A stretch of DNA of 40,108 bases from a virus, in the IMG/VR virus record IMGVR_UViG_3300028840_001161, positions 1-40,108 of that record, one strand, 5' to 3'. How positions within the stretch are numbered: position 1 is the first letter of the stretch; every line of letters begins with the position of its first letter. Positions 3,872 to 39,793 of the stretch are shown here, one piece after another. The position numbers and the translations under genes are program-made. The notes beneath the pieces were generated by a model that saw nothing but the letters and a program-made list of their open reading frames with translations, did no database searches and was not told where the DNA came from.

Positions 3872-4470
3872 TGCTTTTTAAACTCCAACATCTTAGCGTG
3901 CTTCTCGAACTTCTCTTGAACGATTTCTTTCTGCCTCTGCCCGTGTAACTTAGGGTATATCTCACGATAATAATCTTTTGATTGCTCGTATGTCATCCCT
4001 ATTAGCTTTTCGTCTATTTCTGAAAAATCAACCCTAGATCCGCTAGACTGTCCTTTCGCCTTTTCCTCGCCAACAAGCCTGGTTCCATCGTCATCATCTT
4101 CTGAGGCAATATTTAATGCTGCTGATAATGCGTATCTTCTTCCATATGTTATAGCAGACCCTACTGTTTGTGCATCACTTTTCCCATTCTTTGTGTTCGG
4201 CAAAGTAACACTAGTTTCTATCCATTCTCCTGAAACGTGAGCAATCTTTGTAGTTACTGTAGTTTGTCCAACTTCTGGCATCATCCCGTCTTGAGTTATA
4301 ATTATCCCATGCTTAAGCAATGCACTTTTTGTACACTCAATCAAATGGTCCAACGTAGAATACCTTGACTTATAGAACGGATTATCAGCGTTCTTAGTTA
4401 CTTTATCGAACTCTTTTGTCGCCTCTACAAGCGCTGCTACCAATTGTTTTATACTTGAACTTTCTCTCAT
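3868..4470 (-). CDS. ERF-family single-strand annealing protein
   Basis: 200 residues. The N-terminal ERF domain is recognisable from residues about 5-140: LVAALVEATKEFDKVTKNA, the NPFYKSRYSTLDHLI block, TQDG, then GSAITYGRRYALSAALNIASEDDDDG, the family's G-x-x-x-T-Y-x-R-R-Y hallmark. It promotes annealing of complementary single strands in phage recombination and genome circularisation. The C-terminal tail is charged. RBS AGAGGTGAG before ATG 4470. It is coupled by ATGA to the Fe-S nuclease gene. Confidence 0.9.
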   Translation of the reverse strand: MRESSSIKQLVAALVEATKEFDKVTKNADNPFYKSRYSTLDHLIECTKSALLKHGIIITQDGMMPEVGQTTVTTKIAHVSGEWIETSVTLPNTKNGKSDAQTVGSAITYGRRYALSAALNIASEDDDDGTRLVGEEKAKGQSSGSRVDFSEIDEKLIGMTYEQSKDYYREIYPKLHGQRQKEIVQEKFEKHAKMLEFKKQ

Positions 4471-4496
4471 CTCTCACCTCTTTTTCATTTCTCATT

Positions 4497-4781
4497 TTAT
4501 TTTTGCCCAGACATAGACATAGACCAAGACATAGGCCTAGACCTAGACCTAGACCTAGACCAAGACCAAGACCCAAACCCAAACCAAGACCCATACATAG
4601 ACCCAGACCAAGACCTAGACCAAGACCCAGACCCAGACCCAGACCCAGACATAGACCAAGACCTAGACCTAGACCCAGACCCAAACCCAAACCAAGACCC
4701 AGACCCAGACCCAGACCAAGACCTAGACCAAGACCCAGACCAAGACCTAGACCCAGCATTACTTGCATATGCCGCTATCAT
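4497..4781 (-). CDS. Ser/Gly-Trp/Arg dipeptide-repeat protein, copy 1
   Basis: 94 residues: a short leader (MIAAYASNAG) and then a nearly pure dipeptide repeat in which every other residue is Ser or Gly and the alternates are mostly Trp, Arg, Ser, Gly, Met or Phe (SRSWSGSWSRSW and so on), ending SGQK. This frame is chosen because AAGGAG lies eight bases before its ATG and the ATG overlaps the stop of the 113-aa gene (TAATG). The Gly-Leu frame (4403-4768) has no RBS and would run into the ERF gene. The DNA is a hexanucleotide array, so length can change without loss of frame. Function unknown; low-complexity proteins of this kind may be disordered or self-associating. Confidence 0.6.
   Translation of the reverse strand: MIAAYASNAGSRSWSGSWSRSWSGSGSGSWFGFGSGSRSRSWSMSGSGSGSGSWSRSWSGSMYGSWFGFGSWSWSRSRSRSRPMSWSMSMSGQK
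4508..4757. repeat. Hexanucleotide tandem array 1
   Basis: Plus strand units AGACCN repeated about forty times with substitutions (AGACCC, AGACCT, AGACCA, and the variant AAACCC). One strand is strongly G/T-biased in the RNA sense. It lies inside the dipeptide-repeat gene. Confidence 0.9.
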
Positions 4782-5122
4782 TATTTTTGCTCCTTAGGCA
4801 ACTCGTGCTTCCATGGGAAGAAATCAGTAACCGTGTCAAGATTAACAAAGCAATCCCCAACTGGCTCTACTTCTTCTAAAGTTCCGCCTTTAATCGCATT
4901 CATAAAACGCCCACTGTCAGCGACCCATGAAGCTTCCTTGAGACACGCAATTTTGCCGATTAGTTTTTCCACCTTGCCGACTAAATGATAAGTAACCGTT
5001 CTGAAAAAGAATTTTTTACCGATTAAGTCTTCTAGCGACGATATATCAGCGTTTTCTTCTTCTAGCAACTGGTCTTTAATTTTTTCATATGTTTCTTCTG
5101 AAATTTCCAATGTTCTACTCAT
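4781..5122 (-). CDS. Conserved phage protein of unknown function, full-length copy (113 aa)
   Basis: Starts MSRTLEISEETYEKIK and ends DFFPWKHELPKEQK. The middle holds DLIGKKFFFRTVTYHLVGK and a block around WVADSGRFMNAIKGG. I know related small proteins from phage genomes but no function. There is no Cys pair, signal peptide or membrane segment; the beta-rich middle suggests a compact globular fold. A second copy with only the first 12 and last 13 codons lies at 5404-5481. It is coupled to the repeat gene at its 3' end by TAATG. Confidence 0.75.
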   Translation of the reverse strand: MSRTLEISEETYEKIKDQLLEEENADISSLEDLIGKKFFFRTVTYHLVGKVEKLIGKIACLKEASWVADSGRFMNAIKGGTLEEVEPVGDCFVNLDTVTDFFPWKHELPKEQK

Positions 5123-5149
5123 CTTCTCACCTCTTTTTCATTTCTCATT

Positions 5150-5404
5150 TTATTTTTGCCTAGACCTAGACCCATACATAGACCAAGACCTAGACCTAGA
5201 CCTAGACCTAGACCAAGACCCAGACCCAAACCCAAACCTAGACCCAGACCAAGACCCAGACATAGACCAAGACCTAGACCAAGACATAGACCAAGACCCA
5301 AACCCAAACCAAGACCCAGACCCAGACCCAGACCAAGACCTAGACCAAGACCCAGACCAAGACCCAGACCCAGACCCAATATTGCGTACATATACCGCTA
5401 TCAT
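5150..5404 (-). CDS. Ser/Gly-Trp/Arg dipeptide-repeat protein, copy 2
   Basis: 84 residues with leader MIAVYVRNIG and the same dipeptide design as copy 1, ending SRQK. It has the same AAGGAG, eight-base spacer and TAATG overlap, here with the stop of the truncated 25-codon gene. The repeat order differs from copy 1 (for example SWSMSWSRSWSMS), so the arrays have diverged by slippage or recombination since duplication while leader, terminator codons and flanks stayed similar. Confidence 0.6.
   Translation of the reverse strand: MIAVYVRNIGSGSGSWSGSWSRSWSGSGSGSWFGFGSWSMSWSRSWSMSGSWSGSRFGFGSGSWSRSRSRSRSWSMYGSRSRQK
5157..5381. repeat. Hexanucleotide tandem array 2
   Basis: Same AGACCN unit as the first array, about 37 units. 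The 35 or so bases downstream of both arrays (around 4475-4508 and 5125-5157) are also nearly identical, marking the edge of the duplicated cassette. Confidence 0.9.
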
Positions 5405-5885: not shown

Positions 5886-6402
5886 TTCCAAGCCCCCTGC
5901 TAATATAAGCATATGCCTCATTTTGGAAGCTCTCTAGCTTTTCATATGTAGTAGACACGCCGATATGACTTCCCAGGTCTATTAAAAGCCTATCTTTACA
6001 TTTTCTCATAAATTCTTGCGCATCTTTTTGCGTTAAAGTTGCCATGCTAGGAACATATCCTAGAAAGTTACTATTGTGATCAAATATATACTGACATCTA
6101 GACCTATGTCTTGATGGGACTTCTTCTATGCACTCACACCTTTCGAAAAGAAATTCTTTCTTTAATTCATAATGAACTCTGGCTTCACTAGCTTCGCCTA
6201 ATGCGTGCGCTATGTCTGGCAATATATACCCTCTATACCCTTTATGTATAGAATGTTTTATGTCACTTATCTGTTCCATTACTATTTCTACCCTTTCGCC
6301 TTCGTTCTTCTCTATAAAGTCTCTAAACTTCCCCTGCCAATCTATTGTACGATATTTTACAGAAGAGTCTTTAATAACAGCGTTTAATATCAGTTTTTTC
6401 AT
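5872..6402 (-). CDS. Phage protein with weak resemblance to NinB-type recombination proteins
   Basis: 176 residues. A central KGYRGYILPDIAHALGE-like segment, VHYELKKEFLF and a late VPSMATLTQKDAQEFM block resemble phage recombination-associated proteins in which a Y-R-G-Y core is followed by a T-x-x-L-T-x-x-E/D helix. The match is from memory and weak. It is coupled by ATGA to the preceding small gene, and its neighbours (HNH protein, PD-(D/E)XK nuclease, ERF) support a DNA-processing role. No metal-binding motif is obvious. Confidence 0.5.
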   Translation of the reverse strand: MKKLILNAVIKDSSVKYRTIDWQGKFRDFIEKNEGERVEIVMEQISDIKHSIHKGYRGYILPDIAHALGEASEARVHYELKKEFLFERCECIEEVPSRHRSRCQYIFDHNSNFLGYVPSMATLTQKDAQEFMRKCKDRLLIDLGSHIGVSTTYEKLESFQNEAYAYISRGLGNEKN

Positions 6403-7989: not shown

Positions 7990-8190
7990 CTACTTTTCTT
8001 CTTTTTCGAATATCATGTCAGTTAACTCGATTACTTTGTCTTTCGAAAGGAGATTTCTCCTCATTACAATTCCTTTCATATGGTTTTCGCTAAAGTTGCA
8101 CAACTCTGCTGCTTTTGCAGGAGTCATGTCTTTAATCTTGTCTATTAGCAATTGATAAGTATTAACCATTATTATCTTGTCTACATTCAT
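7990..8190 (-). CDS. Small helix-turn-helix-like protein (66 aa), candidate regulator
   Basis: Strong RBS AAGGAGGT before ATG 8190; first gene after operator promoter D. Residues about 24-45 (TPAKAAELCNFSENHMKGIV) read as helix-turn-recognition helix, with Ala and small residues at the expected turn positions. The size resembles Cro-type regulators. Being the first cistron behind an operator-bearing promoter, it is a good candidate for an autoregulated repressor of the TATAC-N3-GTATA sites. That is inference. Confidence 0.5.
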   Translation of the reverse strand: MNVDKIIMVNTYQLLIDKIKDMTPAKAAELCNFSENHMKGIVMRRNLLSKDKVIELTDMIFEKEEK

Positions 8191-8219
8191 AGTTACCTCC
8201 TTACCAAAATCTCTATTAC

Positions 8220-8247
8220 AATATACACTGTATACTTATATTGTCAA
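8220..8247 (-). promoter_or_regulatory. Early promoter D with TATAC-N3-GTATA operator
   Basis: Minus strand TTGACA (8242-8247), a 16-base spacer and TATATT (8220-8225); operator TATAC-AGT-GTATA at 8222-8234. It closely resembles promoter B, including AATATAAG before the operator. Confidence 0.7.
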
Positions 8248-8253
8248 GCAAAA

Positions 8254-8880
8254 TTATATTTTTTTTGCTATTTTTTTAAACATTGGGTTATTAAATAATT
8301 TTTTAATCTCTTCTATCTCGTCTTCTGTAGGTAATGGCTGTTTCTCTCTTATTACTTCTTTCCCGTCTAAAAGGCTGTCGAGATCTTCTTGAGTTCTGCG
8401 TTGATTGGCTTCTTTGGGCACGTTTTTGTCATTTAATCTTATCTTGTAATTGTTTACCATTCCAGAGAATACTTGTATAAAAAAATTCTTATAGCAGCTA
8501 TTGTCATCTCCTTTCAGTCTATCATCTTCGTACTCGCCGTACTTCTTTATTATTTGAGATAACGTAAGTCCTTCTTTATGAACTACGTGATTTACAAATG
8601 TTTGGTCATAATAGATATCGTCTGTCTTTTCTCCGTAGCTATGGATTACTTGTTTATTATTTCCTGAGACAGAATAGCCTCTTTTGTATATATCTTCTAA
8701 GTCTTTAGGGTAAGGGAATGATTGCTTCCCGTAATTTTCGACAATCAGTAGTTCTAATGTATTTAGTTGCTCATCTGTTACATTATTTCTCTTTACCCAA
8801 TCCATTATATCTTGAGCTTTTAATTCGTTAGACCCGTTATACCGACCTGCTAGTCTTTTACAAAACTCTTTCACATCCAT
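8254..8880 (-). CDS. Hypothetical protein in the replication operon (208 aa)
   Basis: RBS TAGGAG before ATG 8880. N-terminal helical region (EFCKRLAGRYNG, then IMDWVKRNNVTDEQLNTLELLI), a middle with YPKDLEDIYKRGY, and a charged C-terminus. It lacks a Walker A motif, so it is not itself a helicase or loader ATPase. It lies downstream of the replisome organizer on the same transcript. A replication-accessory role fits its position only. Confidence 0.55.
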   Translation of the reverse strand: MDVKEFCKRLAGRYNGSNELKAQDIMDWVKRNNVTDEQLNTLELLIVENYGKQSFPYPKDLEDIYKRGYSVSGNNKQVIHSYGEKTDDIYYDQTFVNHVVHKEGLTLSQIIKKYGEYEDDRLKGDDNSCYKNFFIQVFSGMVNNYKIRLNDKNVPKEANQRRTQEDLDSLLDGKEVIREKQPLPTEDEIEEIKKLFNNPMFKKIAKKI

Positions 8881-8889
8881 ATCGCACTC

Positions 8890-9282
8890 CTACAATTTTA
8901 TTTGTCCAAGTAACTGAACACCTTCAAACCTATCTCTACTAACAATGACACCACCCCCAAAAGCGATGCCACTATTAAAGCTATAAAGATAATTAAAAGA
9001 CACTTTATTCTTATCATCATACACAAAACCACCCTGTATTATGTGTTTTTTATGAGGTATTGTTATCTTGGTTTTGCTCTTCCCTTTTCCCATGCTGGTC
9101 GTCTTGAATTCCAAAACACCTCTTTTTATTTTAACATCATGGTGAATTATATCTTCTCCACTTATTTTCTCGTGGTCAACTACTATTTCCTTTCTCTCTA
9201 TTTTTGTTACCATACCAACTATGAAGTACGCAATAATTGATAAAATAATTCCTGTTATTATCCCTGACATGAATCGTTTCAT
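8890..9282 (-). CDS. Membrane-anchored protein with beta-rich C-terminus (130 aa)
   Basis: One N-terminal membrane anchor (about 5-27, SGIITGIILSIIAYFIVGMV), then about 100 residues rich in alternating hydrophobic/polar strands with Gly-rich turns (YSFNSGIAFGGGVIV). RBS AAAGGGG before ATG 9282. This shape, a signal anchor plus small extracytoplasmic beta domain, recurs in phages without an assigned function. Confidence 0.65.
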   Translation of the reverse strand: MKRFMSGIITGIILSIIAYFIVGMVTKIERKEIVVDHEKISGEDIIHHDVKIKRGVLEFKTTSMGKGKSKTKITIPHKKHIIQGGFVYDDKNKVSFNYLYSFNSGIAFGGGVIVSRDRFEGVQLLGQIKL

Positions 9283-9292
9283 TATTGCCCCT

Positions 9293-9394
9293 TTATATAA
9301 ATATCATTATTAGTATTGAAATTATTGCTGCCACCACAACCATCTTTGCAAAATCCATTACGATTTTAAGCACTTCCCTATAATCATTCATCAT
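9293..9394 (-). CDS. 33-aa single-membrane-segment protein
   Basis: ATG 9394 with GGAGG eight bases upstream, overlapping the previous gene by 11 bases. The product begins MMNDYREVLKIVMDF and ends in an unbroken hydrophobic helix (VVVAAIISILIMIFI). The start context and overlap make it credible. Confidence 0.6.
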   Translation of the reverse strand: MMNDYREVLKIVMDFAKMVVVAAIISILIMIFI

Positions 9395-9611
9395 TCTTGC
9401 TACCTCCCTTTTTAATAGTTATTAGATTTCTGATATTCTTAGTTGCTACTACAGTGAAAAAGGCTATTCCTAAATCCTTGCCAATTTCAATGCTTTTGAT
9501 CTTTATCCCTTCGTCCTTAGACGTAAAGAATAATGTGATAATCAAAGCAAACACTGTTATCAAAATCAATAACCCTAAAACCCTAGACAACTTAATTCTT
9601 ATTCGCCACAT
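9384..9611 (-). CDS. Small membrane protein (75 aa)
   Basis: AGGAGG six bases before ATG 9611, directly after the HNH-AP2 stop. One strong membrane helix (about 11-30, VLGLLILITVFALIITLFF) and a second weaker hydrophobic stretch (about 46-58), with a basic Lys/Gly-rich tail. With the 33-aa and 130-aa genes it forms a run of three membrane proteins inside the replication operon; perhaps replisome attachment or holin-like function, but nothing specific is visible. Confidence 0.65.
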   Translation of the reverse strand: MWRIRIKLSRVLGLLILITVFALIITLFFTSKDEGIKIKSIEIGKDLGIAFFTVVATKNIRNLITIKKGGSKNDE

Positions 9612-10160
9612 TCAGCGCCTCCTAAAGTTTATTCTTTCGACTTCCTCTTCTGTTAAGAAGTTCTTTTCTTTCGGAAAGTTTTTTGTTCCGTCTATACTAA
9701 AGTAGTCTCTTGCTGCATCATATTTACGTCCTGCTGTTTCTTTATCTCTGTATAGCCCTATAGTATGGTGTCGACCATTTATCCATATTATTACGCTGTA
9801 CCTTTTGAAACCTCTTGCGTTTATCTTTTCTTTAACGCCACGCAATTTAGTTCCGTAATCTCTATATCTGTTTATGTCTGATCTAGTAGTTACATAAAGG
9901 TTTTCTTTTAAGCAATTAAAGGGATTGCCGTCTTTATGCCTTACATACATTTTTCGATCTGCTACTTCTAGAATTAGTCTTGATAAAGTTCTTGTCTTCC
10001 CATTTCCTCTTACCACAACGTATGGCTTACTAGATTCTTTATTCACGCCTATGTTGCAGTTTATATATTTTTGATATATGTCATCGTCTATTAAAATGTC
10101 ATGCTCATCTTTTCCTGTTTCTGCATAAAGCACCATTGTTTTAATTCTTATCTTTTTCAT
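9612..10160 (-). CDS. HNH plus AP2-domain homing endonuclease-like protein
   Basis: 182 residues from ATG 10160 (GAGGTG upstream); a GTG at 10172 is less likely. The N-terminal half has the HNH core: SRLILEV, VRHKDGNPFNCLKENLYV and a following Asn/Arg (DINRYRD). The C-terminal half (about 108-165) is an AP2/ERF-type DNA-binding domain: RGVKEKINARGFKRYSVII, then GRHHTIGLYRDKETAGRKYD. HNH-AP2 proteins are free-standing homing endonucleases common in phages. It sits between the replisome organizer and membrane genes and is probably a mobile insertion. Confidence 0.88.
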   Translation of the reverse strand: MKKIRIKTMVLYAETGKDEHDILIDDDIYQKYINCNIGVNKESSKPYVVVRGNGKTRTLSRLILEVADRKMYVRHKDGNPFNCLKENLYVTTRSDINRYRDYGTKLRGVKEKINARGFKRYSVIIWINGRHHTIGLYRDKETAGRKYDAARDYFSIDGTKNFPKEKNFLTEEEVERINFRRR

Positions 10161-10168
10161 TTCACACC

Positions 10169-10939
10169 TCACATTTTATCTATGTAATCAAATACTTCTT
10201 TTCTATTCTCTTCTTCCTTATCCCAAAAGGAATTTGTTTGTTTAGGGGTATCATATATTATCTCGTCTTCCCAACTTTTTTGATTAAGGTATGTAGATAG
10301 GTTCTTTCTGTATTTCTTATCTGGTTTAGCTTTAACGTATTCCTTGATATGCTCTATTATCTTATCGTAATTAGACTTGCTGATCTTCTTGAAAGACTTA
10401 TATGCAACCTCCTTACCAACCTTTTTATCATATAATTCCCAAATAGTAGAGAAATGAGAGTCGGTCTCCCCTGTGTCCTTTTTGCTATCTAACTCTTTCT
10501 CTTTCTCTATCTCTATCTCTATCTCTGGTGGACGTTTGTCCGGACAATGTCCCAACTCTTTCATAGAAGCTATTTTCTTTCGGTATTGCGCTTTTCTTTC
10601 GGCTTCTGTGCTACCATGGCCTATAAGATTGTGCATATCGTCTATGAAGATCGTACCATTATCTAGAATTGTCACCATTTCCAGTTTAACAAATAAGTCT
10701 ATAGCATAATCTACTACCTCTAGTTTGTGGTTTGTTATCGTTGCAAGCATCTCTGGCTTATAAGGAATACGGTTCTTGTACAACAACTTGCCCTCCCCCT
10801 TCAAAGATAACAGACAAAGTTTTAGATATAAAGAACTATATTCGTACCCATTAGGCATCGACTCTAGAATCTTAATATCCTCTTCGTTATAGAAGTTGTC
10901 TTTCAGCTTAAGATAATAGTATTTTTTATTAACACCCAT
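10169..10939 (-). CDS. Phage replisome organizer / replication initiator
   Basis: 256 residues. The N-terminal domain (1-120) matches the phage replisome-organizer family: KKYYYLKLKDNFYNEEDIKI, ESMPNGYEYSSLYLKL, IPYKPEMLATIT, VDYAIDLFVKLEM, then a GHGS/TEAERKAQYR end. The linker (about 130-155) is a Glu-Ile/Glu-Lys repeat, and the C-terminal domain (about 163-256) has IWELYDKKVGKEVAYKSF and a Trp-rich tail (FWDKEEENR). Such proteins bind the phage origin and recruit the host helicase loader. In related phages the origin often lies inside this gene, and the linker DNA here has repeats (10497-10550). No DNA polymerase or helicase gene is present, so host replication proteins must be used. Confidence 0.85.
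   Translation of the reverse strand: MGVNKKYYYLKLKDNFYNEEDIKILESMPNGYEYSSLYLKLCLLSLKGEGKLLYKNRIPYKPEMLATITNHKLEVVDYAIDLFVKLEMVTILDNGTIFIDDMHNLIGHGSTEAERKAQYRKKIASMKELGHCPDKRPPEIEIEIEKEKELDSKKDTGETDSHFSTIWELYDKKVGKEVAYKSFKKISKSNYDKIIEHIKEYVKAKPDKKYRKNLSTYLNQKSWEDEIIYDTPKQTNSFWDKEEENRKEVFDYIDKM
10497..10550. other. Candidate replication origin inside the replisome-organizer gene
   Basis: Plus strand shows repeated CTCTAT/CTCTTT hexamers followed at once by two abutting small inverted repeats, GGAC-GTTT-GTCC and GGAC-AAT-GTCC. They fall in the linker between the two protein domains, the place where lambda-like initiator genes carry their origin. Functional assignment is inference. Confidence 0.4.
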
Positions 10940-11396
10940 GCCTTACTCCTTTAATTATAACCTCGATATCTTCCACTGGCACTCCATTCGTATGAACTCT
11001 TATATAATCGCCCTTCTTAACTGGCCTGCATATTCCTTCGTAACTAAACATGTTCCCATTATTGCATCTTCCTATAAACATTACATCGCCACTATATTTA
11101 TTTGGGCTAATTCTCTTTTGTATTATACATTCTGCTTTGCTTATATAGTCTATGTTTGTAGTTAGTTGTGTAGAATTAACGGTTAGGCCTACATAGAGTT
11201 CTTGTCTTAAAATAAAACCCATAAGATTTTCTAGCTTCTCCCCTTTTAGGGAGAAAATAATTAAACAATCCTCTTCGGCCTTAAATATTGTGCCACTTTC
11301 AGAATCTGTTGTTACGCTTATGAATCTTTTTGGGTACACCATTTTCATGAGTGGTATCCTTAATATTTTTGAGTCGATTGTTCCTGTTCCTATCAT
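10929..11396 (-). CDS. Fibre-tip (C1q-like) domain protein in the replication operon
   Basis: 155 residues. Residues about 65-150 match the C-terminal domain of both tail fibres: LYVGLTVNSTQLTTNIDYIS against YLGISLNSTQLTTDIESIS of the 284-aa fibre, and VKKGDYIRVHTNG against LEKGDVVRPHTGG. It lacks the fibres' N-terminal attachment part (MAYV..., NDVKGNFEDHESRI). RBS AGGTGAGG before ATG 11396; the 3' end overlaps the replisome organizer start by 11 bases. It is first behind promoter F, so it is expressed with replication genes, not with the virion. It could be a receptor-blocking decoy, or a moved fibre fragment with another use. Confidence 0.6.
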   Translation of the reverse strand: MIGTGTIDSKILRIPLMKMVYPKRFISVTTDSESGTIFKAEEDCLIIFSLKGEKLENLMGFILRQELYVGLTVNSTQLTTNIDYISKAECIIQKRISPNKYSGDVMFIGRCNNGNMFSYEGICRPVKKGDYIRVHTNGVPVEDIEVIIKGVRHGC

Positions 11397-11424
11397 CTCT
11401 CACCTCACCTTTATTTATTGTGAT

Positions 11425-11453
11425 AATATACGATAGATATTTCTCCTTGTCAA
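11425..11453 (-). promoter_or_regulatory. Early promoter F with degenerate operator
   Basis: Minus strand TTGACA (11448-11453), a 17-base spacer and TATATT (11425-11430). In place of the perfect operator it has TATCT-ATC-GTATA (11427-11439), keeping only one clean half. It drives the fibre-tip-like gene, replisome organizer and the genes after them, so replication may escape the regulator that shuts the other units. Confidence 0.6.
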
Positions 11454-11497
11454 GTATTGTTCTTGACTTTATATTGGATATGGTTTTCATTGAAGAA

Positions 11498-11515
11498 TAC
11501 GTTTAACATCGTATA
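11498..11515. other. Inverted repeat ATACG-N8-CGTAT in the intergenic gap
   Basis: Lies between the terminator (11536-11559) and promoter F. The 11397-11565 gap holds no convincing gene; this repeat could be an operator for the replication unit. Confidence 0.3.
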
Positions 11516-11535
11516 TATCACCCAAAATTTATTTA

Positions 11536-11559
11536 GCCCCTAGCGTAAAAACTAGGGGC
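11536..11559. terminator. Strong stem-loop after the 68-aa gene, possible bidirectional terminator
   Basis: GCCCCTAG / CTAGGGGC, eight perfect pairs with an eight-base loop, seven bases past the stop of the 68-aa gene. The plus-strand side is followed by CTCTTTTT, the minus-strand side by TAAATAAATTTT. It should end the unit headed by promoter E. Confidence 0.7.
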
Positions 11560-11565
11560 CTCTTT

Positions 11566-11772
11566 TTAGAATGGAATGTCTCCTGGTCCTTGATTATCTT
11601 TTTTCATTGGCCTACTGACTATTCCTGTGTAGTCTGGACTGTTCTCTGACTTCTTGTTTTTGTTAGGGAATAAGATAAACGTTTCTTTTCCTAAGAACGG
11701 AATATCTACAGAAATAGAAATATGCTCTTTGTCTGTCCCTTCGTTTTTCTTCCATGCTGCTATGTTACTCAT
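11566..11772 (-). CDS. Small conserved phage protein, possibly nucleic-acid binding (68 aa)
   Basis: RBS AGAGGT before ATG 11772. MSNIAAWKKNE, a central beta segment with PFLGKETFILFPNKNKKSE, and a conserved-looking NSPDYTGIVSRP. The pattern of a strand-rich body with Lys/Asn and SPDY recalls small single-strand-binding-like or DUF736-type proteins, but I cannot assign it firmly. Last gene before the terminator. Confidence 0.6.
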   Translation of the reverse strand: MSNIAAWKKNEGTDKEHISISVDIPFLGKETFILFPNKNKKSENSPDYTGIVSRPMKKDNQGPGDIPF

Positions 11773-11834
11773 TTTTACCTCTCTGATATATTTCTAACGT
11801 CCAACGAGACGCGTTGTAAGCTACGCTGTGGCAC

Positions 11835-11900
11835 TTATCTTTGGATTAGCATCAATAGTGCTATGCCCATTCCAAATACTATCATACAGCCCAATTCCAT
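11835..11900 (-). CDS. 21-aa membrane peptide
   Basis: ATG 11900 preceded by GAGAGGTAAATT; encodes MELGCMIVFGMGIALLMLIQ and a final Arg, a single hydrophobic helix. A further 19-codon GTG frame follows directly (GTG 11834) and ends inside the RBS of the 68-aa gene; it has no RBS of its own and is doubtful. Confidence 0.45.
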   Translation of the reverse strand: MELGCMIVFGMGIALLMLIQR

Positions 11901-11903
11901 AAT

Positions 11904-12305
11904 TTACCTCTCGATCCTTTTTGTGTCTTTTGTTTCTTTGTCCATCTCGTCAGCTACAGCTAACATTGTTTTTAATGGGCCGACCATTTGCATGTGTAGT
12001 GTTGATATTTCTTCTTTGACCCACTTCGAACATTTCTTAATAAACGCTCTTTCTCGTTTACAGATTAGCCGATCTTGCTCTGCCTTCTTAACTACGCCTT
12101 CACACTCTGCAAGTTTCTTTTGAAGAATATTGCACTCTTGTCTCTCTGACATTAACTCAGTTTCATGATCATATTTCAGATTTTTGATCAGTTCTTCTTG
12201 GCTTCTATATATTCTAGCTATCTCTTTTTTATGATCACTTATCGCCTTGTTGTAACCCTTTTGCCATGCGAAGTCATTTAACTTACTAGCAATTTTAGAT
12301 ATCAT
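11904..12305 (-). CDS. Coiled-coil hypothetical protein (133 aa)
   Basis: ATG 12305 lies inside the end of the membrane-protein gene (11-base overlap), with GGGAG about ten bases upstream. Nearly all helical with long charged heptads (KKEIARIYRSQEELIKNLKY, then ECNILQKKLAECEGVVKKAE) and several Cys. The shape recalls Rz/i-spanin periplasmic parts, but it has no membrane anchor of its own; the gene just upstream encodes a one-helix membrane protein. Function unknown. Confidence 0.6.
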   Translation of the reverse strand: MISKIASKLNDFAWQKGYNKAISDHKKEIARIYRSQEELIKNLKYDHETELMSERQECNILQKKLAECEGVVKKAEQDRLICKRERAFIKKCSKWVKEEISTLHMQMVGPLKTMLAVADEMDKETKDTKRIER

Positions 12306-12447
12306 TGTCTGTATTCTCCCGTGCTTTTTCTAAATACTTTTCTGACTCCTCATCACTTAGCTTGCTAACAACAAGAGAACAGAATAAAGACAATAGTAAA
12401 AAGCTAACTACTATGAAGATGAGGGCTATAATAATTATTTCAATCAT
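12295..12447 (-). CDS. 50-aa membrane protein
   Basis: Start at ATG 12447 with AAGGAGG six bases upstream; a longer reading to 12504 would run through promoter E and is rejected. The N-terminal helix (about 3-29, IIIIALIFIVVSFLLLSLF) is followed by a charged tail (DEESEKYLEKAREN). First gene behind operator promoter E. Possibly a holin-like or membrane-adaptor peptide working with the next, coiled-coil gene. Confidence 0.65.
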   Translation of the reverse strand: MIEIIIIALIFIVVSFLLLSLFCSLVVSKLSDEESEKYLEKARENTDNDI

Positions 12448-12471
12448 GGATACCTCCTTATAATTTAACCT

Positions 12472-12500
12472 AATATACTTTGTATATCTATTATAGTCAA
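12472..12500 (-). promoter_or_regulatory. Early promoter E with TATAC-N3-GTATA operator
   Basis: Minus strand TTGACT (12495-12500), a 17-base spacer and TATATT (12472-12477); operator TATAC-AAA-GTATA at 12474-12486. It is the first early promoter met after the late genes. Confidence 0.7.
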
Positions 12501-12526
12501 GCAATAAATTAAATTATTGCCTTTTT

Positions 12527-12928
12527 TTAGTCTTTTAAGATGATTGTTTCTATTTTGGTAAGCCGATTTTCTGTAGTTAACTTATGATCATTGAACAGTT
12601 CGAACAATTTGTTTATGTTTGAGCCGTTATCTTTGATAGCGATCATTATGTCGCGCTTGTCTTCTGACATTTTTTCCTTGATCTCTGTGTGCTGTTTTTC
12701 TTTGTACTCTTCAATATCCTTCTTAAGCCTCATGTAATCGCCTGACACCTTAATGCCCATGTCAGACATTCTTTCCTGGTAGTTGTCAAGTTTTTCCCTG
12801 ACAGAAGAAAACTCTCGCTCATTGCTTTTTACATGTCTGTTCCATATATATAGCATTAGTCCTATCAAAGGAGCTACCACTATCTTTGCTACTGATCCTA
12901 TTGTTGCCGCTGCTGCGCTGATTGACAC
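12527..12928 (-). CDS. Membrane-anchored coiled-coil protein, holin/XhlA-like
   Basis: 133 residues from GTG 12928 (AAGGGG six bases upstream); an ATG reading from 12958 lacks an RBS. One membrane helix near the N-terminus (about 10-30, SVAKIVVAPLIGLMLYIW) is followed by a long charged coiled coil (KLDNYQERMSDMG, EEYKEKQHTEIKEKMSEDKR). Size, anchor and position directly after the tail fibres fit lysis-associated membrane proteins such as XhlA, but the order (anchor first) differs and no family is certain. Confidence 0.55.
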   Translation of the reverse strand: MSISAAAATIGSVAKIVVAPLIGLMLYIWNRHVKSNEREFSSVREKLDNYQERMSDMGIKVSGDYMRLKKDIEEYKEKQHTEIKEKMSEDKRDIMIAIKDNGSNINKLFELFNDHKLTTENRLTKIETIILKD

Positions 12929-12938
12929 TTTTGTCCCC

Positions 12939-13064
12939 TTATGATAATAGTGTAACACAAGCTTGGAATAATGATAAACTTACATATAGAATAGCAATGA
13001 CTACCAAAGCCCTTGTCCCTTCCCTGTCTCTACTTTTTATTTTTTTTTGCATTTGTTTTACCAT
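12939..13064 (-). CDS. 41-aa membrane protein
   Basis: ATG 13064 to TAA 12939-12941. Basic N-terminus (MVKQMQKKIKSRDREG) and one membrane helix (ALVVIAILYVSLSLFQACV). The RBS is weak (AGGT). Position between a tail gene and a membrane coiled-coil gene suggests a lysis role, unproven. Confidence 0.5.
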   Translation of the reverse strand: MVKQMQKKIKSRDREGTRALVVIAILYVSLSLFQACVTLLS

Positions 13065-13072
13065 TTTAATAC

Positions 13073-13513
13073 CTATGATTGAAGCCAAGTTATTGCCGTG
13101 TTAAATGCGTCGTCAACATCTTGCTTAGTTGTCCAGCTAGATGAATTTGTTACGAATTGGTTATATTGAGTGACTATATCTTCTATAGACCTGGTTCCTG
13201 GCTTTATATATTTTAGTAAGTTATCACCTATATTTTTGCCAAGCTGATCTCTTTTCTTAATTTTGTAATCTGTTAGTAGGTTGTTATTAAAATAGTCATC
13301 TATCTCCGTTTGGGTCTTCTCTACTACGGCTGTTCCATTCCATACGAATATAAAGTTGCCGTTTTCATCTGATATAGATTTGTCATTTATTCTGTGACAA
13401 ATGTAGTCTGTATCTTCAAGAAATATTTCCGATCCGTCAATCTTAGCCTTTTGGTACTCAAAAAAAACGTCTACTATCCTATCATTACCGTTTACTTTTA
13501 TATACTTTCTCAT
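13073..13513 (-). CDS. Tail-fibre-associated protein of unknown function (146 aa)
   Basis: AGGAGG before ATG 13513, ten bases after the last fibre gene. N-terminal half beta-rich (KVNGNDRIVDVFFEYQKAK, NFIFVWNG), C-terminal half helical (EIDDYFNNNLLTDYKIKKRD, then DIVTQYNQFV, ending TAITWLQS). Phages often carry such two-part proteins next to fibres, where they may assist fibre assembly; that is by position only. Confidence 0.55.
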   Translation of the reverse strand: MRKYIKVNGNDRIVDVFFEYQKAKIDGSEIFLEDTDYICHRINDKSISDENGNFIFVWNGTAVVEKTQTEIDDYFNNNLLTDYKIKKRDQLGKNIGDNLLKYIKPGTRSIEDIVTQYNQFVTNSSSWTTKQDVDDAFNTAITWLQS

Positions 13514-13522
13514 TCTATCCTC

Positions 13523-14377
13523 CTAATTCCCTACATATGTAATTATAATATGAACATGCCCCGAAACACTTGGAGCTAGCCCCCCAGTATGAGGCCTAAC
13601 AACGTCACCTTTCTCTAGTTTTAATTGTATCGAGCTGGATGCCCCTCCGGAGCCTGCTGAAAATTCTAAACATCGTCTATCCTGGACGCTAATACTTTCT
13701 ATGTCAGTTGTAAGCTGCGTAGAGTTTAAGCTAATTCCTAGGTAATCATTCGTCTGAAGATCCGACGAGAAAGAAACCCCATATACACCAGTTCTGTTTA
13801 TAGTAATTTCTAACCCTTCTGTGTTTCCGTTGTACCCCGTACTGTGATTTTCAGCGAACATATTTCCGTAGTTATCTCTTTCATTTGTAAATCGCATTAT
13901 CTTTGTATCAGTAGAGCCAAAGCCAGCGTATGTGTCTAGCACTAACTGGGAGCTAATGCGCTCCTCTAATATTTGCCAATAACCAGTGTTTGTATCATCT
14001 GCAAGCACTTTAAGTCTATCTTGAGACTTAGGCATCTCTATTGTGGTTAGCTGATCTTCTGTTATCTCATCACTACCTCCGCGAGATACAATACAATTGT
14101 TCCCACCTACAACATGAAGAACCTCTATTTCCCTTCCATCATTTGAAGATAAGCCGGGTAAAGTTATTGTAACGTCTCCGCCGCTAGAATCTACCAGTAC
14201 TTTTGAAACTCCGTCTCCATCTGTTATGGTATATGATGTTGTTCTATATATTGTAACCCCGCCACCGAGAGCTCCTATCCTTGACTCGTGATCTTCAAAG
14301 TTTCCTTTTACATCATTCCCCCAATCTGTTGCGATTAGATCACCGTCGCTAATTGTTGGTAATATTACGTATGCCAT
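13523..14377 (-). CDS. Tail fibre / receptor-binding protein 1 (284 aa)
   Basis: N-terminal attachment segment MAYVILPTISDGDLIAT with a following helix (DVKGNFEDHESRIG), a beta middle (GDVTITLPGL, then EVLHVVGGNN), and a C-terminal jelly-roll (about 155-284) with GYNGNTEGLEITINR, YLGISLNSTQLTTDI and KGDVVRPHTGG, ending in HIIITYVGN. The tip resembles C1q/TNF-like trimeric heads used for receptor binding. It is a tandem paralogue of the next gene upstream and shares its tip with the 155-aa early protein. RBS AGGAGG. Confidence 0.75.
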   Translation of the reverse strand: MAYVILPTISDGDLIATDWGNDVKGNFEDHESRIGALGGGVTIYRTTSYTITDGDGVSKVLVDSSGGDVTITLPGLSSNDGREIEVLHVVGGNNCIVSRGGSDEITEDQLTTIEMPKSQDRLKVLADDTNTGYWQILEERISSQLVLDTYAGFGSTDTKIMRFTNERDNYGNMFAENHSTGYNGNTEGLEITINRTGVYGVSFSSDLQTNDYLGISLNSTQLTTDIESISVQDRRCLEFSAGSGGASSSIQLKLEKGDVVRPHTGGLAPSVSGHVHIIITYVGN

Positions 14378-14386
14378 CTTATCCTC

Positions 14387-15238
14387 CTAGTTACCTATAA
14401 ATGTGCAAGAAAATACATATCTAGCCGCTACAGACGCCGCATTTCCGTCCGTATGTGGTCTTACTATATCACCTGCGTTTAACTTTATACTTGTCGATAT
14501 TGGCGACTCAGTTCCTGCATTAGACTGGAAACTAACAACTAGCTTGTCGGCAGTATTTATTCCTGTTATTGATGTTGTTAGTTGCGAACTGTTTAAGGAA
14601 AATCCTGCGAAGTATCCCGGTGTTTCATTTGGAGAGAAAGTAAAGGAGTATTTTCCTGGCCTGTTAATAAGTATCTCTAACCCTTCTGTGTTTCCGTTGT
14701 ACCCTGTTGTGTGATTCTCGCTAAACATATTACCGTAACCTTCGATAAGGGTGGTTAGCCTTGGTATCTTGTTATCAGTTGATCCATATCCCGCATATGT
14801 GTGCAACCTAAGTTGGCAACTGATGCGCTCGTCAGTTATTGCCCATTCGGACGTGGTGCCAAATATCTTCAGTCTGTCATATTGCTTAGGTAATTCTATA
14901 GTTTCCAAGCCATCTATTGTCTCAGCAATCTCTCCGTCTATTATTAAGTTATTCCCACTTGTTTGATGAAGAAACTCTAGCTCTCTATCTTGATTATCTG
15001 CAAGTGTGGGAAGGTTTATAGTTATATCTCCACCAGAGGTATCGCATATAAACTTTCCAAATCCGTCTCCATCTGTAATAGTGAATGGGGAGTCCGCATT
15101 AGTCAAATACTTTGTTGTTGCAGCACCTATTGCCGATATTCTTGTTTCATGGTCTATAAAGTTATCGTTAACTTGATTGGTCCATGATTCTTTTATTATT
15201 TGCCCACTATTTAAAGGGCCTAGCTCTACATATGCCAT
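14387..15238 (-). CDS. Tail fibre / receptor-binding protein 2 (283 aa)
   Basis: Same layout and nearly the same length as fibre 1: MAYVELGPLNSG, VNDNFIDHETRISAIG, GDITINLPTLADN, LHTYAGYGSTDNKI, HTTGYNGNTEGLEILINR, SLNSSQLTTSI and AGDIVRPHTDG. The two copies are well diverged in the middle and tip, so they may bind different receptors or form a heteromeric fibre. RBS GGAG before ATG 15238. Confidence 0.75.
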   Translation of the reverse strand: MAYVELGPLNSGQIIKESWTNQVNDNFIDHETRISAIGAATTKYLTNADSPFTITDGDGFGKFICDTSGGDITINLPTLADNQDRELEFLHQTSGNNLIIDGEIAETIDGLETIELPKQYDRLKIFGTTSEWAITDERISCQLRLHTYAGYGSTDNKIPRLTTLIEGYGNMFSENHTTGYNGNTEGLEILINRPGKYSFTFSPNETPGYFAGFSLNSSQLTTSITGINTADKLVVSFQSNAGTESPISTSIKLNAGDIVRPHTDGNAASVAARYVFSCTFIGN

Positions 15239-34910: not shown

Positions 34911-35648
34911 TTATTTATTTTTGTTATACTTACTCCAATAGTATTTAGTTAAGTTAACAGTGTAGTCTAACGGGCTATGGTTTAGCTTTTCCTTTCTCCA
35001 CTGTTTCCACTTAAGTAATCTTTTAAGTATTCCTTTCTTAGTCCCTATCTGCATCTTCCCTTTAACATGCCAGTACATCCAGAATAATGTTATCCTAAAA
35101 GGCACTTTAGTAACAGGGTCATCTCCGTTTACTATTCTTATTGATTCGCTTATGTTCTTGTTGAACCATCTTGCTGCTGAATAGTTCATGCTTCTTGGTG
35201 CGCCCTCTGTGATTACTCGCACTGTCTTAGGTATTCGTATCTTAGAATATGACATTAACATGGCAAGGATCTGCGCTAATGCTCCCCCTAGACTATGACC
35301 ACATATATATACATTTTTATAACTCTTGTACAGCTTTATTATTTGCCTATATATAACAAGAGTTTGTTCGTAGTGGCCTTCATGAAACTTATGGCTCTTT
35401 ATTCCTGGCGATTTTATTTGTTTAAAGTTAAGGTTATCTTTCCAATCTTTATTGTTATCTTTATTAGCTCTACTGCCCTGTATGCAAATGTAAAGAGTGT
35501 CGTCTTTCTCACAAGTATACCATTGCACACCGTTAATATCATACCATGTTTTAGATAGTTTTATAGGGTAATCCCCGTACTTGCCCTCATAAGTCATTGC
35601 TATCATCTTTGATATATTTGTTATTTGTGTTTTGCTTGATTTCTTCAT
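34911..35648 (-). CDS. Class 3 lipase / alpha-beta hydrolase
   Basis: 245 residues. Nucleophile elbow GHSLGGALA (S119), oxyanion-side GSRANKDNNKDWKDNL, acid NGDDPVTKVPF (D176/D177) and a downstream His (H194 in FWMYWHVKG), the order of class 3 lipases. No signal peptide or lipoprotein motif, so it would act in the host cytoplasm, at lysis, or as part of the virion. It lies between tail-surface-type genes and the packaging genes. Substrate cannot be read. Confidence 0.85.
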   Translation of the reverse strand: MKKSSKTQITNISKMIAMTYEGKYGDYPIKLSKTWYDINGVQWYTCEKDDTLYICIQGSRANKDNNKDWKDNLNFKQIKSPGIKSHKFHEGHYEQTLVIYRQIIKLYKSYKNVYICGHSLGGALAQILAMLMSYSKIRIPKTVRVITEGAPRSMNYSAARWFNKNISESIRIVNGDDPVTKVPFRITLFWMYWHVKGKMQIGTKKGILKRLLKWKQWRKEKLNHSPLDYTVNLTKYYWSKYNKNK

Positions 35649-35946: not shown

Positions 35947-37761
35947 TTATCCTCCTCTTACAACCTGATCGATTATGCGTATGTCAATTTCCCTAAACCT
36001 GTCTATAATGCTTATGTCTTCTTCATCTACTGGAATTACTGGTTCAATTCCTTCTGAGTAAAATCCCCCAGTTGCTGTTACGCTTATTTGTACAGCTCCT
36101 TCGAATATCTGTGCTTGTTCGAATTCACCGCTTGCAGTATTAGTTATTGATGCGCTTCCAGTGAAAAGGTTAGTAGATTCGAATTGTCCTGTTGTTGTTA
36201 CATTTACGGTAGTGCTTCCCTCATATTCAGTAAGATTCACTATTTCTATGTCATTTCCATCTGGGAATGCATCATATATTGCAAAACGTCCATTAGCATT
36301 AGTTACTATGCTATATGTCAATGGTTGCCCGTTCTGAGTTATAGTAGGGCTTGTCCATGTACTTGGGATTTTAGTCTTAAACGTTAATGGCTCTTCTACT
36401 AATCCTTGTACATTTGCGTTAAGCCCAGAAAGATCTATACTATTTGACACAGTGATCTTATTGTTAAGGTTTGTCCCGCTTATTGTCGCATTATTTCTTG
36501 CATGTATATACTGTGCTGCTTCTGGGTATGTCGCTACCCAGAATTCCGAGTCATTTGTTTGTAGATAGTCTAAAAGAGTTATAAAAGCTGCCTTCCCATC
36601 TGTATTCATTCCGTGGAAAAGGTATACTGCCCATCCTCTGTATGTTAGTGCTCCAGAATCTAGTAAATTAGGCACATAAGTACTTCCAGTTGTGTTGTCA
36701 CTTAGATTAACAGCTTCTACATTCTTTGTATTGTACATACTTGGCCATGGAGTGTTAAATCCGCCCTCGGTACCTCTTGCAGCAAGGAAATATTCTTCTG
36801 CAATCGTAGCCTGTGAAGCGTCTCCCATTGGCCATGCAAATGTTTTAACGTTGTTTTCAGGAATATTTGCCTCTAAAGATGTTATAGAAGCTGAGAATTC
36901 AGTTCTAGCTGTTGTCTCGTCGCTTATTGCTGGATGAGTATGAGAATGTGACTCTATAGCATGTCCATCGTCATATAAAGCGTTAAATCCTGACCATGTC
37001 CCATTTGTGGATCCAATCCAGTTTGACACAGCAAACCATGTGAAGTTATATCCGTATGTGTTATACTGTGTAGTCCACCATGGTTGATCAGCTTCCCAGT
37101 TATCGTCTATAGTGAAACTAAAACAAGCATTCTTTCCATCTTTCCATAAACATACATGTGTATCCCCGTTTAGTAACGGCCAATAAATCTCATCTGGGTA
37201 TTGTTTTTCTTCTGGAATCGTACATCTGATTGTTCTATCTAAAAGAATATCGTCTATATTGTCATGTTGTTCTTTTACTAATACTATGTTGTCTAGTTCA
37301 AAGTCTGAATAGGTTGCGTCACCAATTACCGCTCTGAACCTTACCCGGATCTTGTCTGTATAGGAAGACAAATCAACGCTTTGGCTCTGCCATGAGTCCC
37401 CCTGGTCTCCTGTTAAAGACCACACACTATTTGTGTAACTATCTTGGTCAACATCGTATATGTCTATATGCATTGTTCCCATTGTCGAACCATACATACC
37501 TAAATCAAAGTTAAGGGTCAAAGATATAGAATCGTTCATCAAGTCTATCTCTTCTGTTATCAGCCACGCCTCTTGACCAGCGACTGTTCCTGACGACTCT
37601 ACCCATACTCTGTAGTCATTTACACCGGATATACCAGTTCCATTAGTAGGAGTACTAGCATTACTAATATTCCATAGTAAATTACCATCATTATAGTCCC
37701 AATCGGCCGGGAAACTCCCACTTGAAAAATCTACGTTTATTAGATTTACATTCTGTGCCAT
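35947..37761 (-). CDS. Polysaccharide deacetylase-containing surface/tail protein (604 aa)
   Basis: The N-terminal 160 residues look like a jelly-roll/MAM-type binding domain (INVDFSSGSFPADWDYNDG, ending FELDNIVLV). The centre (about 205-430) is a NodB polysaccharide deacetylase: TIDD (D219, D220), HSHTH (H272, H276), FAWPMGD, and AVYLFHG. Two short repeats follow (VNVTTTGQFES, SITNTASGEFEQ, QISVTATGGFYSEG). No signal peptide, so it is best read as a virion depolymerase-type enzyme that removes acetyl groups from a capsule, cell-wall polymer or peptidoglycan. The start has only a weak RBS (AGGT). Confidence 0.8.
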   Translation of the reverse strand: MAQNVNLINVDFSSGSFPADWDYNDGNLLWNISNASTPTNGTGISGVNDYRVWVESSGTVAGQEAWLITEEIDLMNDSISLTLNFDLGMYGSTMGTMHIDIYDVDQDSYTNSVWSLTGDQGDSWQSQSVDLSSYTDKIRVRFRAVIGDATYSDFELDNIVLVKEQHDNIDDILLDRTIRCTIPEEKQYPDEIYWPLLNGDTHVCLWKDGKNACFSFTIDDNWEADQPWWTTQYNTYGYNFTWFAVSNWIGSTNGTWSGFNALYDDGHAIESHSHTHPAISDETTARTEFSASITSLEANIPENNVKTFAWPMGDASQATIAEEYFLAARGTEGGFNTPWPSMYNTKNVEAVNLSDNTTGSTYVPNLLDSGALTYRGWAVYLFHGMNTDGKAAFITLLDYLQTNDSEFWVATYPEAAQYIHARNNATISGTNLNNKITVSNSIDLSGLNANVQGLVEEPLTFKTKIPSTWTSPTITQNGQPLTYSIVTNANGRFAIYDAFPDGNDIEIVNLTEYEGSTTVNVTTTGQFESTNLFTGSASITNTASGEFEQAQIFEGAVQISVTATGGFYSEGIEPVIPVDEEDISIIDRFREIDIRIIDQVVRGG

Positions 37762-39268: not shown

Positions 39269-39793
39269 TCAATCATCTAAAACCTCTATTATTTCTCTAT
39301 TTGTAGACACCAGCTTATCTTCTCCGTAAATTACTCTCCCCCATACCTTTACCTTTGTCAAGACTGATCCATTTGGAGCATACTCTTTAGCCTCGCTTTC
39401 TTTGATTGAAGAATGGAATCCACAAGCACACAATTTTATATTATTCTCATACAATTGCTCATTTAATTCAACCTCTTGCCCATTGCGCATTACCAGCCGT
39501 CTTCCATCTTTTTTGATGTAATGCCATGCCTCGATACAATTATTATACCCTACCAGGATCTCATAGCCATCGTCAGAGCCATAGCCAGAGCCAGCGCCAT
39601 AGCCATCGCCATAGCCATAGCCAGAGCCAGAGCCATCGCCATAGCCAGAGCCAGAGACATAGCCATAGCCATAGCCATCGCCATAGCCATCGCCATAGCC
39701 AGAGCCAGAGACATAGCCATAGCCATCGCCATAGCCATAGCCAGCGCCAGTGCCATAGCCACTAACTATTGCCCCCATGGTTGTTCCCCCCAT
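39269..39793 (-). CDS. Gly-Tyr/Ser/Asp dipeptide-repeat protein with DUF7666-like C-terminus (174 aa)
   Basis: Residues about 10-75 are a dipeptide repeat with Gly at alternate positions (GYGYGDGYGYVSGSGYGDG). The C-terminal 95 residues (EAWHYIKKDGRRLVMRNGQE, IKLCACGFHSS, SEAKEYAP, KVKVWGRVIYGEDKLVS, TNREII) match a phage family seen with KLCxxGFHA and GExxxGxDKxVxTxR motifs. Start ATG 39793 or ATG 39778, both inside the end of the DUF6948-like gene. The repeat is a hexanucleotide array at the DNA level. Function unknown. Confidence 0.7.
   Translation of the reverse strand: MGGTTMGAIVSGYGTGAGYGYGDGYGYVSGSGYGDGYGDGYGYGYVSGSGYGDGSGSGYGYGDGYGAGSGYGSDDGYEILVGYNNCIEAWHYIKKDGRRLVMRNGQEVELNEQLYENNIKLCACGFHSSIKESEAKEYAPNGSVLTKVKVWGRVIYGEDKLVSTNREIIEVLDD
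39566..39768. repeat. Hexanucleotide tandem array 3
   Basis: Plus strand units of GCCATA, GCCATC, GCCAGA and GCCAGC, about 33 in a row, in-frame with the Gly-dipeptide protein. The unit differs from arrays 1 and 2, but the period is the same. Confidence 0.9.

Follow-up and report, generated by a model that had tools for sequence, protein, structure and literature searches.

A tailed phage encodes, by position at the head of its replication genes, a 155-aa protein (P0001) which, by sequence profile and fold model, is a real but altered member of the C1q/TNF-like family that forms the tips of the phage's own tail fibres: a homologue, not a complete tip. We give about an even chance to the reading that P0001 is a cytosolic, non-virion accessory protein that reuses the adhesive tip-type fold for an intracellular ligand. 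Fibre tips are familiar as external, receptor-recognising parts of phages, and our literature search found no report of C1q domains in phage replication modules. If the reading is true, the tip's binding fold has an intracellular use in phages as well, with host defences as one possible target, and a cheap search route would be to look for tip-family domains that lack an attachment part and lie beside early genes.

Table 1. Features of the P0001 region and of the two tail fibre genes.
Feature	Position	Strand	Description
Replisome organiser	10169-10939	-	DnaD-like initiator; PF09681 E=1.1e-28, phrog_5968 E=1.2e-47
P0001	10929-11396	-	155-aa stand-alone C1q/TNF-like protein, fibre-tip family
Promoter-like site	11425-11453	-	sigma-70-like, TTGACA-17-TATATT; 11/12 consensus match, joint best in 8000-14000
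Palindrome	11449-11467		GTCAAG-N7-CTTGAC, perfect 6-bp, operator-like; overlaps the -35 box of the promoter-like site
Hairpin	11536-11559		8-bp, terminator-like; lies between P0001 and the SSB-tail-like gene; T-run is better for transcripts of the + strand
SSB-tail-like gene	11566-11772	-	68-aa protein ending GDIPF, like the SSB C-terminal peptide; upstream edge of the variable slot
Tail fibre 1	13523-14377	-	tip domain about 13526-13975; tip model pLDDT 94.8, C1q/TNF fold
Tail fibre 2	14387-15238	-	tip domain about 14390-14842

The DNA analyzed, referred to here as the window, is a 40,108-base IMG/VR virus record in which the main genes all lie on the minus strand (Table 1). The start of P0001 is an ATG preceded by AGGTGAGG, with a good ribosome site ahead of it, and upstream extension of the reading frame is impossible because a TGA stands two codons ahead of the ATG. 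Coding signal was found only in the P0001 frame (codon usage +22.2; the five alternative frames scored –62 to –140). A sequence-only reading of this DNA had described P0001 as a fibre tip devoid of its attachment part, and this description holds: just two residues stand ahead of the domain, and neither the N-terminal ~140 aa of the fibres nor the first β-strand of their tip is present. P0001 has five cysteines, versus two to three in fibre proteins of roughly twice its length, and inspection of the sequence by eye revealed no signal peptide, lipobox, or transmembrane or hydrophobic segment.

The same reading had placed P0001 as the first gene of the replication unit, and the order of elements agrees with it: the promoter-like site is followed by P0001, within the end of which lies the ATG of the replisome organiser, giving an 11-nt overlap that suggests coupled translation of the two proteins. 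Promoter-like sites are no more frequent in this region than chance would give, and the 11/12 match is one to the consensus only. After the initiator come genes for an HNH endonuclease, a Holliday-junction-resolvase-like protein, an Erf-type annealing protein and an exonuclease. By this position P0001 heads the replication genes, and it would probably be made early. A repeated operator was considered and rejected, as the palindrome at the promoter-like site has no further exact copy in the window and its near matches are at chance level. The window contains no tRNA, and 9000-13000 gave no match to Rfam.

Several other sequences in the window are of note. Inside the replisome organiser gene, 10474-10561 carries 6-bp direct repeats of the GAGATA/GAAAGA type that match Streptococcus thermophilus phages at ~85-90%, with the annotation of TP-J34 reading '7 direct 6 bp-repeats'; the repeats are possibly an intragenic replication origin, or possibly mere low-complexity coding sequence. 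The small protein at the upstream edge of the slot is homologous (39% identical) to one encoded at 4766-4978 of the related contig L028, and the two end in GDIPF and DDIPF, respectively, resembling the bacterial SSB C-terminal peptide, with no recognisable SSB domain in either. Within the recombination gene region, two ORFs (4403-4768 and 5119-5391) consist of long GL dipeptide repeats (GLGLGL...), and in an ORF at 39269-39793 a long GYGDGYG-type repeat precedes a C-terminal part of normal appearance. By eye, the window also encodes a prohibitin/SPFH-like membrane protein (775-1692), a lipase-like protein with GHSLGGAL (34911-35648), and a 604-aa protein with the polysaccharide-deacetylase-like motifs TIDDNW and SHSHTHP in its middle (35947-37761).

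P0001 matches the C-terminal halves, i.e., the tip domains, of both fibre proteins. Local alignment scores against tail fibres 1 and 2 were 83 and 62, compared to maxima of 60 and 56 from 2000 shuffles, and BLASTP returned E=6e-6 and E=2e-4, respectively. The sequence-only reading had singled out NSTQLTT and KGDxxRxHTxG as blocks shared with both fibres, which is exact for tail fibre 1 and one residue off per block for tail fibre 2: NSTQLTT is identical in the former and reads NSSQLTT in the latter, while KGDYIRVHTNG of P0001 is equivalent to KGDVVRPHTGG and AGDIVRPHTDG, respectively. Scanning viral contigs with an alignment of tips gave 71 loci, and from these tips (about 80 domains) a profile was built with P0001 left out. 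Among 5947 ORFs this profile retrieved P0001 at E=3.8e-12 over ~115 of 134 positions, with the next ORF of the window at E=0.17. Because the profile retrieves P0001 without containing it, the likeness to the tips is well above chance, and the assignment to the fibre-tip family made in the sequence-only reading is supported by the profile and in part by the structure model.

Overall identity between P0001 and the tip family is about 16-29%. P0001 keeps 11 of the 14 columns that are conserved at ≥90% and 14 of the 21 conserved at ≥80%, NSTQLTT and RxH being among the near-invariant residues kept; the three lost are replaced as glycine to proline, glycine to cysteine, and tyrosine to isoleucine. 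Direct searches of Pfam and PHROGs with P0001 gave no family match, and a sequence search of the PDB gave matches at chance level only. Within the tip family, weak Pfam matches were seen to BclA_C (27/74 members) and C1q (6/74).

The fibre tip was modelled with confidence as a C1q/TNF-like jelly roll (pLDDT 94.8, pTM 0.89), the best PDB matches of the model being C1QL2, CD70, cerebellin and other C1q/TNF proteins at TM values up to about 0.65-0.74. All models were of single chains, and that of P0001 (AF2; pLDDT 78.9, pTM 0.76) used the same set of tip sequences as its alignment, so that it is not independent of the homology. In Foldseek, the P0001 model matched TNF, FasL, cerebellin and ExsFA at a probability of ~1.00 and TM of about 0.4-0.5, with E >1e-3; influenza haemagglutinin heads were interspersed among the matches at lower TM, and the best match in the viral library was a 1039-aa uncultured-phage protein (TM 0.67). 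Structure prediction against the fibre tips had been proposed as a check, and it agrees in part: the model still resembles C1q/TNF folds, but the E-values are above 1e-3, the pLDDT falls short of that of the tip, and the tip strand at residues 9-19 has no counterpart in P0001, which begins at the GxG motif that follows. P0001 also has extra loop residues, i.e., an insertion, around residues 97-112, and it is weakly modelled around residues 59-61 and 101-112.

Every family member found outside this locus has a fuller N-terminus than P0001. Domain matches occur in ~51 whole records, always in ORFs of at least 162 aa, and among 74 aligned rows P0001 is the only one with fewer than eight residues before the GxG motif. 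Several family members have 164-200 aa with only short leaders. Apart from P0001, each short member seen retains the first strand and about 20 or more leader residues, and those inspected are surrounded by tail genes or late genes, or else lie on short contigs. A further scan with a 7-row alignment added only three new contigs (L099, L102 and L113). The last of these, a 119-kb phage contig, encodes at 5920-6396 a 158-aa, nearly stand-alone tip protein, the closest architectural parallel to P0001, which lies after a tail-fibre block and is followed by a holin-like gene and a lysozyme. At the other extreme, a 1787-aa protein (L068, 6059-11419) carries the tip domain three times in tandem, with one copy very divergent. 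In 399 genomes of one phylum, which may not be that of the host, the domain occurred only twice, both times in open frames of at least 283 aa. Searches of viral contigs, phage records and plasmids turned up no orthologue of P0001.

The tree leaves two origins for P0001 on a par. It sits on a terminal branch of extreme length, 6.4 changes per column, and in the free tree it falls outside the clade of its own phage's fibre tips; forcing it into that clade gave a slightly higher likelihood (p-AU 0.64), and the AU test favours neither placement. Three diagnostic residues are held with the fibres' clade, three with other members and 12 with neither. On the tree and these residues, duplication of a neighbouring tip and import from elsewhere are indistinguishable. 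Because the AU test and the diagnostic residues give no clear kinship, the same receptor specificity as the phage's own tips cannot be assumed for P0001.

The place ahead of the initiator gene (rep) was compared across relatives that share genes with this phage (L003/L029, L033, L028, L042 and G480). It is filled by an Ala/Ser-repeat protein and a GIY-YIG-like ORF in L028, a 77-aa ORF in L033, a pentapeptide-repeat protein in L042, and a 70-aa ORF in G480, while the L003 record stops short of it. The slot of L028 was defined by its flanking genes, because its initiator was not detected as a homologue of that in the window. None of the relatives' records holds a tip-family copy besides the fibres, and none of 24 more distant rep records holds the tip domain (0/24). 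Judged from these gene contents, the position behaves as a variable accessory slot of which P0001 is one occupant.

Four other explanations were weighed against these data. The absence of any orthologue, the very long branch, the missing first strand and the weakly modelled stretches would all suit a tip fragment that is decaying, or was displaced recently, and has no present function. We consider this unlikely, since the reading frame is intact with native codon usage, a ribosome site, a promoter-like site and the overlap with rep, and most of the near-invariant residues are kept. A touch less probable still, and likewise unlikely, is that P0001 is a virion part, a separately encoded tip adhesin on the fibre or baseplate that is merely placed among replication genes. 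The stand-alone 158-aa protein beside the tail-fibre block of L113, the family members with only short leaders, and the fibre genes lying only ~2 kb upstream of P0001 speak for such an adhesin. On the other hand, the two residues ahead of the P0001 domain contrast with the strand and leader of the other short members, and P0001 overlaps rep and not late genes, although position alone does not settle timing.

The remaining two explanations appear improbable. That P0001 is a replication helper, co-translated with the initiator and able to bind either that protein or the origin, would fit the coupled translation suggested by the 11-nt overlap; yet in four relatives whose neighbourhood is comparable an unrelated gene stands ahead of the initiator, and because of this replication in general needs no P0001. 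The sequence-only reading had proposed that P0001 is an early receptor-binding tip, intracellular or released, which blocks superinfection or binds a host factor. The second of these roles agrees with the mechanism that we propose below. The first, together with the blocking of receptors by released protein, has in its favor the homology to fibre tips and the use of the fold for glycan or receptor binding elsewhere (PMC10769870, PMC9608196), but we rate it the least probable of all. Because P0001 has no export signal visible by eye, five cysteines and no strand A, a surface receptor would be reachable only after lysis; derivation from the phage's own tips is not demonstrable; and a freely released blocker would presumably hinder the phage's own progeny as well.

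A cytosolic accessory binder is favored because P0001 lacks an attachment part, shows no export signal by eye, is linked to the replication genes, and occupies a slot with changing content. In the mechanism that we propose, a single C1q/TNF-like domain of the fibre-tip family, freed from any fibre shaft, would be expressed from its own promoter jointly with the replication initiator, and the binding surface of the tip would engage a ligand inside the infected cell during replication, for which a host component or a defence component is the most plausible candidate. In this mechanism we infer the kind of ligand as well as the early timing, the cytosolic location, the absence from virions, the oligomeric state and the act of binding. 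Both the ligand and an anti-defence role for P0001 are guesses. We consider unlikely the more specific version in which P0001 is a free intracellular effector co-expressed with the initiator, whether it mimics a tip in the cytosol and binds part of a host defence or serves as a decoy for a tail-tip-recognising defence sensor. Against the favored cytosolic binder stands the absence of any orthologue, and the very long branch and the missing first strand may mean decay.

Among known systems, the nearest are the C1q/TNF-like tips of tailed phages, where C1q-domain genes are counted as putative receptor-binding proteins, variable from one phage population to another (PMC7468147), and where a TNF-like domain occurs in Pam3 gp24 (PMC9608196). 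P0001 belongs to the same profile family as its own phage's tips, the model of which matches C1q/TNF structures, and shares with them the conserved NSTQLTT and IRxHT blocks; it differs in having the insertion, in the loss of shaft, attachment part and first strand, and in its place beside the replication initiator instead of tail genes. The MAT fibres of Bdellovibrio have TNF-like tips, and one of them, Bd2439, binds GlcNAc and LPS (PMC10769870). The likeness here is a single TNF-like domain as an adhesive fibre tip, whereas the TNF-like parts of MAT fibres are the C-termini of long fibres and the PDB search gave no sequence match to them. A sugar pocket in common with Bd2439 was considered and dropped, as the published pocket residues have no obvious counterpart in the RxH motif. 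The C1q-like proteins of the exosporium (BclA_C, ExsFA) show likeness through the weak Pfam matches within the family and through ExsFA among the structural matches of P0001, although P0001 itself matches no Pfam model. Finally, while P0001 overlaps rep and is without a terminator of its own, unlike moron or accessory genes in variable slots, it resembles them in having its own promoter-like site and in lying where gene content changes from one relative to the next.
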